From Desulfobacula sp. (GTDB lineage Bacteria; Desulfobacterota; Desulfobacteria; Desulfobacterales; Desulfobacteraceae): a DNA stretch of 64,000 nucleotides. The translations under genes were made by a program, and so were the position numbers. The notes under the pieces are model-generated. The model saw only the letters and a program-made list of their open reading frames with translations. It was not told the DNA's origin and made no database searches. The DNA lies in contig NZ_JABZFL010000111.1 of the NCBI RefSeq assembly GCF_014237455.1, positions 1-64,000 of the forward strand, read 5' to 3'. Numbering within the stretch: position 1 is the first letter of the stretch; each line of letters begins with the position of its first letter. Positions 40,362 to 46,550 of this stretch are shown here, piece after piece.

Positions 40362-42602
40362 ATGAATGAACAGAGCTTGAACCTTCCCGTTACCGGGATG
40401 AGTTGCGCTAATTGTGCTGCAAATATTACCAGGACCGTCAGTAAACTGGATGGCGTGACAGATGCCAATGTGAATTTTGCATCGGAAAGATTGCTTGTCG
40501 ACTATATTCCTTCAATTGTTTCCCTTGACACCATTGTTTCAGAGATCAGAAAAATCGGATTTGATTTGATCGTTGTCGATGAGGGGCAGGATGAAAAAGA
40601 TGTGGAAGAGATTGCAAGGCATGCGGAAATCAAGGACCAGATGCAAAAATTCATTGTGGGTGTTGTTTTTGCCCTGCCATTGTTCATCATCAGCATGTCA
40701 AGGGACTTTGGTCTGATCGGTTCCTGGAGTCATGCGCCCTGGGTGAATTGGTTTTTTCTCTTTCTTGCGACACCGGTCCAGTTCTATACGGGGTTGGATT
40801 ACTATATAGGTGCCTATAAAAATCTAAGAAATAAAACCACCAATATGGATGTGTTGATTGCGTTAGGATCCTCTGTGGCCTATTTTTATTCACTTGCCAT
40901 TCTTGTGTTGCCGGGGCTTGACGGGCATGTTTATTTTGAGACGTCTGCCGTGATTATTACGCTGATTAAATTCGGCAAGCTCCTTGAAGCCAGGACCAAA
41001 GGCAAAACAGGCGGTGCCATAAAAAAACTGATTGGACTTCAGCCAAAGACGGCCTTTGTCATGGAGAATGGTGAAGAAAAGCAGATTCCCATATCCATGG
41101 TTAAACTGGGTGATATCGTTGTGATCAGACCCGGAGAACGGATTCCGGTTGATGGTGTTATTATAGAAGGCAGGTCAGCCATCGACGAATCCATGCTCAG
41201 CGGAGAATCCCTTCCGGTTGATAAGGTAAAAGATGATATGGTTACCGGAGGCACTGTTAATGGCGAAGGCCTTTTAAAATTTGAAGCCACTCGTGTGGGT
41301 AAAGATACGGCTTTGTCCCAGATTATAAGGCTTGTCCAGGAAGCCCAGGGCAGTAAGGCGCCGATCCAGGCTCTCGCAGATAGAGTGGCCGCCGTATTTG
41401 TTCCGGCTGTCATCGGTATTGCTGTGATCACTTTTGGTATCTGGTGGGGAATCACCGGGGAGTTTGTTCCATCCATGATCAGGATGGTAGCTGTCCTTGT
41501 GATTGCATGTCCGTGTGCCTTAGGGCTTGCAACTCCAACAGCCATTATGGCGGGTACGGGAAAAGGAGCTGAAAACGGGATTTTATTTAAAAGAAGCGAG
41601 GCCCTTGAAAACGCAGCCAAGCTTGAAATGATTGTGCTGGATAAAACCGGTACGATAACCATGGGTAAACCCACAGTGGTCGATCAGATTCCTGCGGAAA
41701 ATTCCGGCTTATCTTCCAATGAACTTTTGAGCCTTGCCGCATCCATTGAAAAAGGGTCTGAGCATCCCATTGGAAAAGCCATTGTCACCTTTGCACAGGA
41801 AAAAGGCCTGGTATTGAAGGATCCGATAAATTTTAAAGCCCACAGTGGTTTTGGCGTAGCAGCGCAGTTGGGTGACTCGATTTTCAGGTTTGGAAAGCCA
41901 AGATGGTTTGAACAGGAGTCAGGCATGCCGGATGCCATCCAAGAGTTGATCCATAAATTTCAGGATAAGGGCAGGACCGTCATGGTGCTGGCAAAGGACA
42001 AGGATGTGCAGGGGATTATATCCGTCTCTGATGTGTTGAAACCCGAGTCAAAACAGGCCATCAAAGAGCTTCATGCCGAAGGTCTTAAAGTGGTCATGCT
42101 GACCGGAGATAATTTACAGACAGCCAGAGCCATTGCCGGAGAAGTGGATGTGGATGATGTGCAGGCAGAGGTCAGACCTGAAGAAAAATCCGGAAAGGTG
42201 AAAGCATTTCAGCAAAATACTGTCCTGGTCGGGATGGTGGGAGACGGAATCAATGATGCCCCGGCGCTTGCACAGGCCGATATCGGCTTTGCCATTGGCA
42301 CTGGAACCGATGTAGCCATTGAAACCGGAGATGTGATTCTCTCGAGCGGGAAGTTAACCGGTATCCCAAAAGCCATTAAAATCAGCCGGAAAACCATTGC
42401 CACCATAAAACAGAATTTATTTCTGGCTTTTGTTTATAATATTATTTTGATTCCTGTTGCAGCCGGAATTCTGGCGCCTTTTGACATGTTCCCGGAATTT
42501 TTAAGACAGCTTCATCCTATCTTAGCAGCCCTGGCTATGGCCATCAGCAGCATATCGGTGGTGACGAACAGCCTGCGGTTGTATAATGCCGATATCAGGT
42601 AG
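40362..42602 (+). CDS. copA: Copper-translocating P1B-type ATPase
   Basis: This 746-residue ATPase exports Cu+. One N-terminal HMA domain has [10 protein letters not shown] (Cys15 and Cys18). The transport CPC motif is in [15 protein letters not shown], the phosphorylation site is DKTGTIT, and the hinge [24 protein letters not shown] follows. AGGAGG lies 6 nt before the ATG, so the GTG directly before it is not needed. No copper chaperone or CueR-type regulator is adjacent. Confidence 0.94.
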
Positions 42603-43068
42603 GCTTGATAATTCGAATGTCCGTAGTGCTGCCCATGTTAATAATGATATTTTTATTGGACAACTGGTCTGAGATATCTGACAGAACCATGTCATATTTT
42701 TTCAGGGTAAGCCTTTTCCTGAATCTTGAAAATGTCGAACTATCCGGAGCAGCCTCTCCCATGGGCAGGCCGATAAATTTTTTAAATGAAAACCGGTCGT
42801 TAATCAGGCTTTCCAGTTCAACATCAGATTTGATTTGAAACCAGTTCCTGAGCAACATACATTTGAACAGCATTAAAGGAGAATAAGCTTGGGGTCCTTT
42901 TTTGTTTTTCCCGGTGGGATAGTTTTCCAGCAGGGTGGATTCAATCTGGCCCCATTTTATGCGTTGATCAAGATTTTTTAAATGTTCAAGCGTGTTGTTT
43001 CTTGCTTTTTTCCGGGACAGTTCCAGGTCTGAAAATGAAAGGGCCTGTTTGTCGGATTTAAAACTCAT
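42595..43068 (-). mobile_element. Truncated IS5-type transposase remnant
   Basis: The 157-residue frame is the N-terminal part of an IS5-family (DUF772) transposase: LSFSDLELSRKKARNN, PLMLFKCMLLRNWFQ, INDRFSFKKFIGLP and PDSSTFSRFRKRL. The catalytic DDE domain is absent. Similarity breaks off near GSTTDI, and the frame ends inside the last bases of copA. It is a decayed element, unable to make an active transposase. I could not identify terminal inverted repeats. Confidence 0.82.
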
Positions 43069-44440: not shown

Positions 44441-45106
44441 ATGAAAAAGTCTTCAAAAAACAGGCTGACCCCTCGGCAGGAGTCACTTTTTCCGGGTAGC
44501 GGTCTTTTTGATAAAATTGCAAGGGCTGTTTGTCGTGCCGGAACGCTTCCAAGAAAAGAGCTCTATGAAGCATGGGAAATGGCAAAAAGAGTACGTCGAA
44601 AATATAGAGGCGGCAGAGTTTTAGATCTTGCCTGCGGTCATGGTCTTTTGGCGCATATTATGCTCATCCTTGATGACAGTTCAAAGACTGCCATTGCAGT
44701 GGACAAAGAAATTCCCTTAAATGCAAAAAAATTATCCACAACATTGATCACATCCTGGCCAAGGCTGAAAAACAGAATTATATACAAAGAAGTAGATATC
44801 CGGGACATCATCGTCCTTCCGGATGATATCGTGGTATCTGCCCATGCCTGTGGATCTTTAACCGATCTGATTATTGATAAGGCCATTGAACAGCATGCCA
44901 GGGTGGCGGTTCTACCCTGCTGTCATAATGTAACCGTTTCTTCCACAGCCGGCCTTGAAGGATGGATGGATAAAACCCTTGCCGTGGATACAGCAAGGGC
45001 GGTAAGGCTTAGATCAAAGGGATACAAGATTGTGACCCAGAAAATTCCTGAAACGATCACACCCAAAAACAGGCTACTCATGGGAGAGTATTTAGAAAGC
45101 AAATAA
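44441..45106 (+). CDS. SAM-dependent methyltransferase-like protein
   Basis: The 221-residue protein has the SAM site VLDLACGHGLLAHIM (about 60-74) and SAHACGSLTDLII with VLPCCHN, motifs seen in the TRM13/METTL25-type methyltransferase fold. An RNA or protein substrate is possible but unproven. Its end overlaps the convergent argO gene by 15 nt. Confidence 0.75.
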   Translation: MKKSSKNRLTPRQESLFPGSGLFDKIARAVCRAGTLPRKELYEAWEMAKRVRRKYRGGRVLDLACGHGLLAHIMLILDDSSKTAIAVDKEIPLNAKKLSTTLITSWPRLKNRIIYKEVDIRDIIVLPDDIVVSAHACGSLTDLIIDKAIEQHARVAVLPCCHNVTVSSTAGLEGWMDKTLAVDTARAVRLRSKGYKIVTQKIPETITPKNRLLMGEYLESK

Positions 45107-45706
45107 CCCTTTTAGCACGGACAGGGCAATCACCCACATGGTTATTCCCACAAGGGTATCCAGAATTCTCCAGGAGGATTCTTTTATAAACAGAGGCGCA
45201 AGCATCTTTCCGCCGATGCTTAGGGAAAAAAACCAGATAAATGATGCCGTGACAGCACCGGCACCAAAAAAAATGTGACCGGGTTGTTTAAACTGGCTGG
45301 ATATGCTGCCCAGCAAAATAACGGTGTCAAGATATACATGAGGATTGAGCAATGTTACAGCAAGGGTTGTGAGAACAGCCGCTTTTAAAGATGATTCAGC
45401 CTTTTGGTTCACAGAAAGGCCGCCGCCTTTGATAGCGGATCTGAAGGAACCGATCCCATAAATAAAAAGAAAACCAGCCCCGCCAATGCCGGCAATTAAT
45501 GAAAGACTTTTGCTCGAAGCAATAAGGGTTCCCATGCCGGTTATTCCCAGAATGATGAGCAGAGTATCACAAACAGCACAGATTAAAGGGATAATAATAT
45601 AATGGTTTTTTCTCACTCCATGGCTTAAAACAAATGCATTCTGGGCGCCAATGGCGATGATCAAGCCGCTTCCGGCTCCGAATCCTTTTAAGAATGTTAA
45701 CAGCAT
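45092..45706 (-). CDS. argO: LysE/ArgO-family amino-acid exporter
   Basis: This 204-residue protein has six hydrophobic helices and the family start GFGAGSGLIIAIGAQNAFVLSHG, where the GAQNAFVL segment is characteristic of ArgO and LysE. Such carriers export arginine and lysine and are usually switched on by the LysR-type regulator ArgP/LysG. An argP gene lies about 13.4 kb away but is broken. Its promoter shares a 26-bp element with that gene. Confidence 0.88.
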   Translation of the reverse strand: MLLTFLKGFGAGSGLIIAIGAQNAFVLSHGVRKNHYIIIPLICAVCDTLLIILGITGMGTLIASSKSLSLIAGIGGAGFLFIYGIGSFRSAIKGGGLSVNQKAESSLKAAVLTTLAVTLLNPHVYLDTVILLGSISSQFKQPGHIFFGAGAVTASFIWFFSLSIGGKMLAPLFIKESSWRILDTLVGITMWVIALSVLKGLFAF

Positions 45707-45802: not shown

Positions 45803-45923
45803 ATTTCTTATGATTTTTGATAACGACATCCGTATTTATCAAAGACAAAACTTGTTTTGTTTTCTTGTAGATCGTTTAATGATGCTTATATTCACAAAAA
45901 TAATCGAATCAAAGGAGAACATG

Positions 45924-46550
45924 ATGTCTTCATCTTTGGAGCTTGAAATATTTTCAGACTATGTTTGACCCTGGTGCTATTTCATTACCGGGCGTATTGA
46001 AAAACTTGAAAAAGAGTATGGCATTCACATCAAATGGCGGGCGTTCCCCCTTCATCCGGATACACCTGAACAGGGTCGGACCTTGGAAGAATTGTTTAAA
46101 CACAAAGGGATAACGGTTAATGTGGATAAAATGATGGCGAACCTGAAAGCCACAGCAGCAAAACTCGGGCTTGCTCTGGGGGATAGAAAGATGACTTATA
46201 ACAGCCGTCTTGCCCAGGAAGTCGGCCTGTGGGCCCAAACAAAGGGCCGGCGGGGGCATAAGTTTCACATGGAAGCATTTAAAGCCTATTTTGTTCAAGG
46301 CGTAAATATTGCCCAAAAAGATGTTTTGTTAAACCTGATAGACCGTTCCGGGCTTGATCGCAGGGAAGGCAAGACGGTTATTGAAACACGAGAATTTTCA
46401 GATGCCGTGGATTCGGACTGGGAACTTTCAAGAGCAAAGGGTGTCACAGCAGTTCCGACCTTTTTCCTCGGCCTTGACCGGCTTGTGGGCGCGCAGCCTT
46501 ATGAAGCCCTTAAAAGATGGATCGATAAATACACTGACAAAGCATTATAA
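45924..46550 (+). CDS. Selenoprotein: DsbA/FrnE-family oxidoreductase (UPWC)
   Basis: Read through one in-frame TGA (45966-45968), this gene encodes 208 residues, the normal length for FrnE-like DsbA proteins. The start is EIFSDYV-U-PWCYF, where relatives have DYVCPWC, so selenocysteine 15 replaces the first active-site cysteine. Downstream sequence (RAFPLHPDTPEQGRTLEEL; VPTFFLGLDRLVGAQPYEAL) is intact and typical. AGGAG lies 6-7 nt before the ATG at 45924. A SECIS-type hairpin follows the TGA. The protein is probably cytoplasmic, as no signal peptide is seen. A gene call that treats TGA as stop would give a TTG-started fragment at 46083. Confidence 0.85.
45980..46002 (+). promoter_or_regulatory. 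Bacterial SECIS element
   Basis: UUUCAUUAC (45980-45988) pairs with GUAUUGAAA (45994-46002): eight base pairs and one U-U mismatch, capped by the 5-nt loop CGGGC. The loop starts 20 nt after the UGA and has G at its second position, matching the bacterial SECIS rule of a guanosine in the first two loop bases at 16-37 nt. Confidence 0.75.

Follow-up and report, generated by a model that had tools for sequence, protein, structure and literature searches.

A conserved in-frame TGA almost certainly encodes an active-site selenocysteine in a DsbA/FrnE-type oxidoreductase gene of Desulfobacula sp.

The window analyzed here is a stretch of 64,000 nucleotides from Desulfobacula sp., lying on contig C26 of a draft genome of 3.48 Mb (113 contigs, 97.8% complete). 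On its forward strand, positions 45924 to 46550 hold a frame of 208 codons that is open except for a single in-frame TGA at codon 15 (45966 to 45968) and that ends in TAA. The frame encodes a DsbA/FrnE-type thioredoxin-fold oxidoreductase, and the TGA falls at the first active-site cysteine position, within the stretch FSDYV-U-PWCY. The partner cysteine, Cys18, is encoded by TGC at 45975 to 45977 on the same strand, and position 15 and Cys18 are the sole Cys/Sec residues of the protein. The initial annotation had described this arrangement correctly, namely, a TGA at the first active-site Cys (DYV-U-PWC) in a frame that is intact on both sides and has a length of 208 residues. Its statement that the TGA replaces a "resolving-pair cysteine" needs rewording, however, as the replaced residue is the N-terminal nucleophile of the CxxC pair (UPWC here) and the resolving Cys18 is kept.

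Two adjacent ATG codons, at 45921 and 45924, are candidate starts. The Shine-Dalgarno-like sequence AAAGGAGAA (45911 to 45919, forward strand), which bears out the ribosome binding site that had been proposed before the ATG, is better spaced for ATG 45924. Because the frame is open for 65 codons 5' of the TGA, the choice of start rests on this Shine-Dalgarno sequence and on relatives; in 71 of the 138 TGA homologs examined, the closest in-frame ATG precedes the TGA by 14 codons. Of the 37 frames in the window that stay open for 250 codons or more (frames, not proven genes), 9 terminate in TGA. Reassignment of TGA throughout the code was therefore judged unlikely and rejected.

Upstream, a gene for a LysE-type translocator (45092 to 45706, reverse strand) is divergent and not in an operon with the oxidoreductase gene. 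A divergent LysE gene adjoins the selenoprotein gene in 7 of the 22 distinct loci examined, whose flanks were of unequal length. No operon partner was found among these 22 loci, and the downstream genes vary. A promoter scan gave 7 promoter-like sites where 2.4 were expected, counts that we did not use as evidence, and a terminator scan gave none where 0.9 was expected. Rfam returned only one tRNA over the whole window at the gathering score. A 157-codon frame at 42595 to 43068 (reverse strand) matches only the transposase domain DUF772, and 86% identical frames lie near the same gene in two relatives (L024 and L025); this frame is perhaps a kept transposase remnant.

Residues 7 to 198 of the window protein match Pfam PF01323 (DSBA) with 118.9 bits (cut-off, 25.6). 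An AlphaFold2 model built on 72 aligned sequences had a pLDDT of 95.0 and a pTM of 0.91. The best PDB match found by Foldseek was Deinococcus radiodurans FrnE (5coh; TM 0.89, 26% identity), followed by SCO1869 (TM 0.84) and then by YjbH, 2-hydroxychromene-2-carboxylate (HCCA) isomerase (2imd, TM 0.73), and glutathione S-transferase (GST) kappa (1r4w, TM 0.72). A profile search placed FrnE (E = 4e-34), SCO1869, and HCCA isomerase (2imd; 3e-10) in the same order. Relative to D. radiodurans FrnE (5cnw, 5coh), the window protein has the same fold, a CPWC-type site in the same place, and a cytoplasmic location by prediction, but it carries Sec for the first Cys. It also lacks the C-terminal CX4C that is thought to regenerate the D. 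radiodurans enzyme according to the portion of the source available (PMC8945050). Since some FrnE proteins are described there as being without CX4C, we did not treat this motif as defining FrnE. Eight columns are invariant in the alignment of 72 homologs (which excludes the one Trp form described below), among them position 15, C18, Y19, R95, and P178. From established knowledge of the fold, we take position 15 to be the nucleophile of the CxxC pair. Pro178 (46455 to 46457, forward strand), in the VPTF loop, is presumably the cis-Pro of the thioredoxin fold. By inspection, the protein has no signal peptide, and its N terminus runs almost straight into the first strand.

Homologs were pooled from a family search and a class search, which overlap, and from 80 loci kept of the 117 in a public scan. 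After 13 loci with identical coding sequences were dropped, the 238 loci gave 225 distinct sequences. The codon at position 15 is TGA in 140 of these (a count that includes the window and 6 short pieces), TGC or TGT in 81, and TGG in 1, and it is not covered in 3; none of the 225 shows another TGA over the aligned region. The initial annotation had looked to homologs for TGA or Cys at this codon, and where this codon is covered, these are what we found in all but the TGG case; only a few pieces lack an intact frame. The gene occurs in 60 of the 86 genomes of the family search and in 119 of the 241 genomes of the class search (at least 90% complete), and by our reading of the tables a TGA copy is present in 56 of the 60 and 113 of the 119; about half of the class-search genomes are without the gene. 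The gene-bearing genomes without a TGA copy have Cys forms (G058, G019, G108, and G109) or the Trp form (G229), and three others (G034, G076, and G151) have fragments that do not cover the codon.

Identity to the window protein ranges from 91% down to 31% among the Sec homologs; in 82 of 132 of them the aligned part contains only one Cys. At this gene, the named genome closest to the window is a Desulfobacula MAG (L051; 90% protein identity), and another genome, assigned to the same genus (G053), also stands at 90%, in keeping with a Desulfobacula-like sulfate reducer as the source. Cys homologs from Desulfofustis, Rhodospirillales, SAR116, and others (the Cys rows of L057 to L130) are 38 to 49% identical to the window protein; most have a DYVCPWCY-type motif at the same site, with a Cys codon instead of TGA.

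Downstream of the TGA, a SECIS-like hairpin (UUCAUUA-C-CGGGC-G-UAUUGAA; 45981 to 46001, forward strand) presents a G-rich apical loop, CGGGC, at 45989 to 45993, which begins 21 nt after the UGA. In the window alone this hairpin is weak (-4.3 kcal/mol, with one U-U mismatch), and among 5,000 random synonymous recodings of the stretch, 72 form its seven core pairs and 50 fold as well or better. Across homologs, with identical 45-mers counted once (140 Sec sequences reduced to 121 and 81 Cys sequences to 71), all seven core pairs are formed in 99 of 121 Sec sequences versus none of 71 Cys sequences, and the G-rich loop is present in 116 of 121 versus 11 of 71. The stem also covaries: the 121 Sec sequences contain 46 double-change cells, spread over 6 of 9 pairs, whereas shuffles gave a mean of 9.4 and a maximum of 18, and none of 1,000 reached 46. 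With offsets counted from the first base of the TGA, U20-A30 is replaced by C-G in 18 sequences and A18-U32 by G-C in 12. When the eight most divergent loci were removed (leaving 113 distinct sequences), 23 double-change cells remained, whereas the shuffles averaged 4.4 and never exceeded 8. Paired cells made up 84.6% (shuffle mean, 79.8%; maximum, 81.0%), compared with 30 to 53% for slid partners, although the shuffles ignore kinship. Of the nine pairs, 14-36 and 19-31 are each kept in fewer than half of the 121 sequences (55 and 41, respectively).

The better controls are the Cys set, many of whose members come from distant groups, and the sharp local limit of the signal. Over the 11 codons after the TGA, the synonymous-codon excess was 0.385 in 132 Sec sequences and 0.032 in 78 Cys sequences, in a profile that left out 8 TGA rows with identities no higher than 40% and 3 Cys rows with identities no higher than 36%. 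Synonymous choice is frozen at codons 20 to 26 in the Sec set only, and from codon 27 onward both sets lie at 0.02 to 0.07. A different hairpin, directly after the UGA, is the best free-standing fold (-9.4 kcal/mol); it was rejected as the SECIS because it starts at the UGA itself and because conservation and covariation mark the hairpin that follows it. Over the hairpin region, the only Rfam matches were two unrelated ones below threshold, which we took as chance. Lying in the coding region, near the UGA, and with G in its loop, as is described for bacterial SECIS elements, the hairpin at 45981 to 46001 is a putative SECIS for SelB binding.

The initial annotation had named the sel genes as the place to look for corroboration, and selA, selB, selD, and tRNA-Sec are all present in the same genome. 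It had also named two findings that would count against a selenoprotein, a genome lacking sel genes and close relatives with a normal stop or a frameshift at this point, and our checks turned up neither. The tRNA-Sec gene lies on contig C99 (76.5 bits, above the family cut-off) and is called by ARAGORN as tRNA-SeC with anticodon tca. Profile searches found selA on contig C42 (596.9 bits), selB on contig C56 (346.1 bits), and selD on contig C37 (370.6 bits). The selD gene (L019; G000:C37, 1477 to 2526) has its own in-frame TGA in the N-terminal part, in the stretch SGUAAK, and is itself a selenoprotein gene; Sec in SelD is a known feature of that protein. Among 41 genomes chosen from those behind the 80 public loci (7 Sec, 34 Cys), selA was above the cut-off in 7 of 7 Sec genomes versus 9 of 34 Cys genomes. 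Cys forms therefore occur in Sec-using bacteria too, and 6 of these 9 genomes belong to Desulfofustis, Desulfobulbaceae, Desulfobacterales, or Geobacteraceae. Within the family search, selA is found in 80 of 86 genomes, so a test of selA against TGA inside the family has no power. Of the 56 TGA-bearing genomes in that search, two drafts (G043, 92% complete; G084, 84%) gave no selA match, and in a third draft (G010) the match was partial and below the cut-off.

Since one base separates TGA from TGC or TGT and the window comes from a draft assembly of 113 contigs, we considered that the TGA might be a true stop or an assembly mistake, with the gene dead or really encoding Cys. The chance of this is negligible, given that the same TGA recurs in 140 of 225 distinct sequences and is accompanied by a covarying hairpin that no sequence among the 71 with Cys completes. 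The frame of L022, the closest relative, is unbroken, and its codons 27 to 208 differ from those of the window by 20 synonymous versus 17 nonsynonymous changes. Translation could also begin 3' of the TGA and leave the upstream part untranslated. The first in-frame start there is TTG 46083, just as the initial annotation had predicted for a naive gene call; mechanical ORF calling does give this start and a 155-residue protein, and a short AGGG, the only such sequence before it, lies 7 bases upstream. We regard this as extremely improbable, because the TTG start drops residues 1 to 53, which include the first strand, the helix of the active site, and the two residues of that site, because codons before the TGA are conserved (E8, F10, D12, and Y13 are nearly invariant), and because ATG 45924 has a far better Shine-Dalgarno sequence than TTG 46083.

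UGA is generally known to be open to near-cognate read-through as Trp, and one homolog (L178) has TGG at this codon while keeping the hairpin pairs, which raises the question of whether the TGA is read as Trp, or as Cys by a special tRNA, through natural suppression. That homologs have Cys in 81 cases and Trp in only one, that TGA ends other long frames, and that the genome holds the full Sec machinery alongside a conserved hairpin of the kind that SelB requires make such decoding very improbable. A reading that keeps selenocysteine would place the enzyme in the HCCA-isomerase/GST-kappa branch, as a glutathione-dependent isomerase or transferase and not a disulfide oxidoreductase. These enzymes have a related DsbA-like fold and are among the next PDB matches (2imd and 1r4w), but FrnE is clearly the better match in both TM score and E value, and all 72 aligned homologs, of which L178 is not one, keep the U/CxxC pair. 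The active-site chemistry of HCCA isomerase and GST kappa differs, with Ser at that position. We consider assignment to this branch unlikely.

The apparent stop in this redox-enzyme gene thus almost certainly encodes selenocysteine at the active site. What we computed directly is the TGA, its conservation, the covarying hairpin, the machinery, and the predicted fold; from these we infer Sec incorporation itself. With high confidence, we propose that the gene encodes a selenoprotein in which SelB and Sec-tRNA(UCA) would decode the UGA via the hairpin, yielding a cytoplasmic DsbA/FrnE-type oxidoreductase. As the protein has no signal peptide and Sec15/Cys18 is its sole redox pair, a cytoplasmic selenenylsulfide oxidoreductase is the best reading. 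In the cycle that we envisage, SelB and Sec-tRNA(UCA) would read the UGA at 45966 to 45968 as Sec, steered by the hairpin at 45981 to 46001, and Sec15 would be an exposed nucleophile whose selenolate attacks a disulfide or other oxidized substrate, forming a mixed selenenylsulfide. Resolution of this mixed species by Cys18 would leave a Sec15-Cys18 selenenylsulfide, and a thiol reductant, either thioredoxin or a thiol of low molecular weight, would then reduce it. FrnE proteins are predicted cytoplasmic thiol oxidoreductases, and a D. radiodurans mutant is sensitive to cadmium and diamide, according to the part of the source available (PMC8945050). By analogy, and from homology at 26% identity to D. 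radiodurans FrnE, the window protein may reduce or isomerize disulfides when the cell is exposed to oxidative or metal stress.

A tree of 111 rows (76 Sec, 34 Cys, and 1 Trp; quick method, midpoint root, short or near-identical rows left out) needs 8 state changes. Because its starred branches force only one of these, we do not claim numbers of gains or losses. A divergent Sec group of seven sequences (L251, L252, L253, L255, L256, L257, and L258) has a UPFC motif, which is not diagnostic, as L245 of the main set also has it. The hairpin of this group has a quite different stem (UCGGCAA...UUGCCGA type) and a similar G-loop. The five rows of this group that are in the tree are separated from the main Sec set by Cys forms of alpha-, beta-, and gammaproteobacteria (SH-aLRT 90 to 94). 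The divergent group may represent a second, separate origin of Sec.

Candidate Sec-to-Cys returns are the Cys forms L057, L058, L065, L068, L078, L096, L157, L158, L162, L234, and L239, whose genomes carry selA and belong to the window's phylum or to its relatives; in the tree, some of these forms fall within the Sec part, and several still form 4 to 6 of the 7 hairpin pairs. The genomes of two of them, L078 and L162, also carry a TGA copy; for L078, a Desulfobacterales locus with the same Cys sequence as L241 of G253, this copy is L227. The Trp form L178 (G229:C333) has TGG where its nearest kin have TGA, in a genome with selA, and it keeps all seven hairpin pairs with GTG in place of GGG in the loop; it is either a recent Sec loss or a base error in a draft genome. 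Two second copies that are broken by an extra TAG or split into pieces (L159, G040:C304:32733-33005; L164, G066:C124) stand beside a full copy elsewhere in the draft and are either decayed duplicates or assembly effects.

The novelty implied by the initial annotation is not supported, as DsbA-like selenoproteins with UxxC already form a known family (PMC1088965, PMC2398784, PMC5029168, and PMC13188914, from the text available). Reported since 2005, they make the window protein a well-supported addition to a known kind. We take COG2761 to be the FrnE COG. In the portions of these sources available, nine DsbA-like UxxC sequences of COG2761 are given for Sargasso Sea data (PMC1088965), four DsbA-like proteins for bacterial genomes, with Anaeromyxobacter, Desulfovibrio desulfuricans, and Desulfotomaculum named (PMC1794560), and 63 of "DsbA 1" for GOS data (PMC2398784). 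A 2016 paper reported 45 DsbA-like selenoproteins in 41 organisms (PMC5029168), and a 2026 list of 119 families and subfamilies includes "DsbA-like protein form 1," PF01323 (PMC13188914). Compared by description, the published proteins and ours have in common PF01323, Sec in UxxC, and a bacterial SECIS just downstream; a Desulfobacterales-wide presence is not described in the text available from those sources. A 2021 study of Desulfobacula-related genomes reported 34 putative selenoproteins in one of them (PMC8318568); the terms "Dsb" and "FrnE" do not appear in the available main text, and its selenoprotein list is in supplementary tables. Among the titles listed in literature searches, none concerned a FrnE-type selenoprotein of Desulfobacterales, a result that we do not extend to absence from print. 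What is new here is the breadth within one order, presumably Desulfobacterales, the divergent second Sec group with its own hairpin, and the finding that the window protein is below the cut-off of every NCBIfam model. This last finding makes a truncated annotation likely and leaves the earlier description of the gene as "unannotated-looking" plausible.

The gene offers a clean example of how standard pipelines are likely to cut short or miss a selenoprotein gene, and with a TGA copy in 113 of the 241 genomes of the class sample, many annotations would be corrected by a curated model. Pairs of Sec and Cys orthologs, among them the Cys forms in selA genomes, could be used to measure the contribution of Sec to a DsbA/FrnE enzyme. 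We tentatively suggest, at somewhat under an even chance, that among Desulfobacterales carriers of the gene Sec is the ordinary, long-kept state, that several local returns to Cys (and one to Trp) took place in selA-bearing genomes, and that the divergent group with a different SECIS gained Sec separately. If this is true, the FrnE-type family would be a natural series for studying the benefit that sulfate reducers gain from selenium in a cytoplasmic disulfide enzyme.
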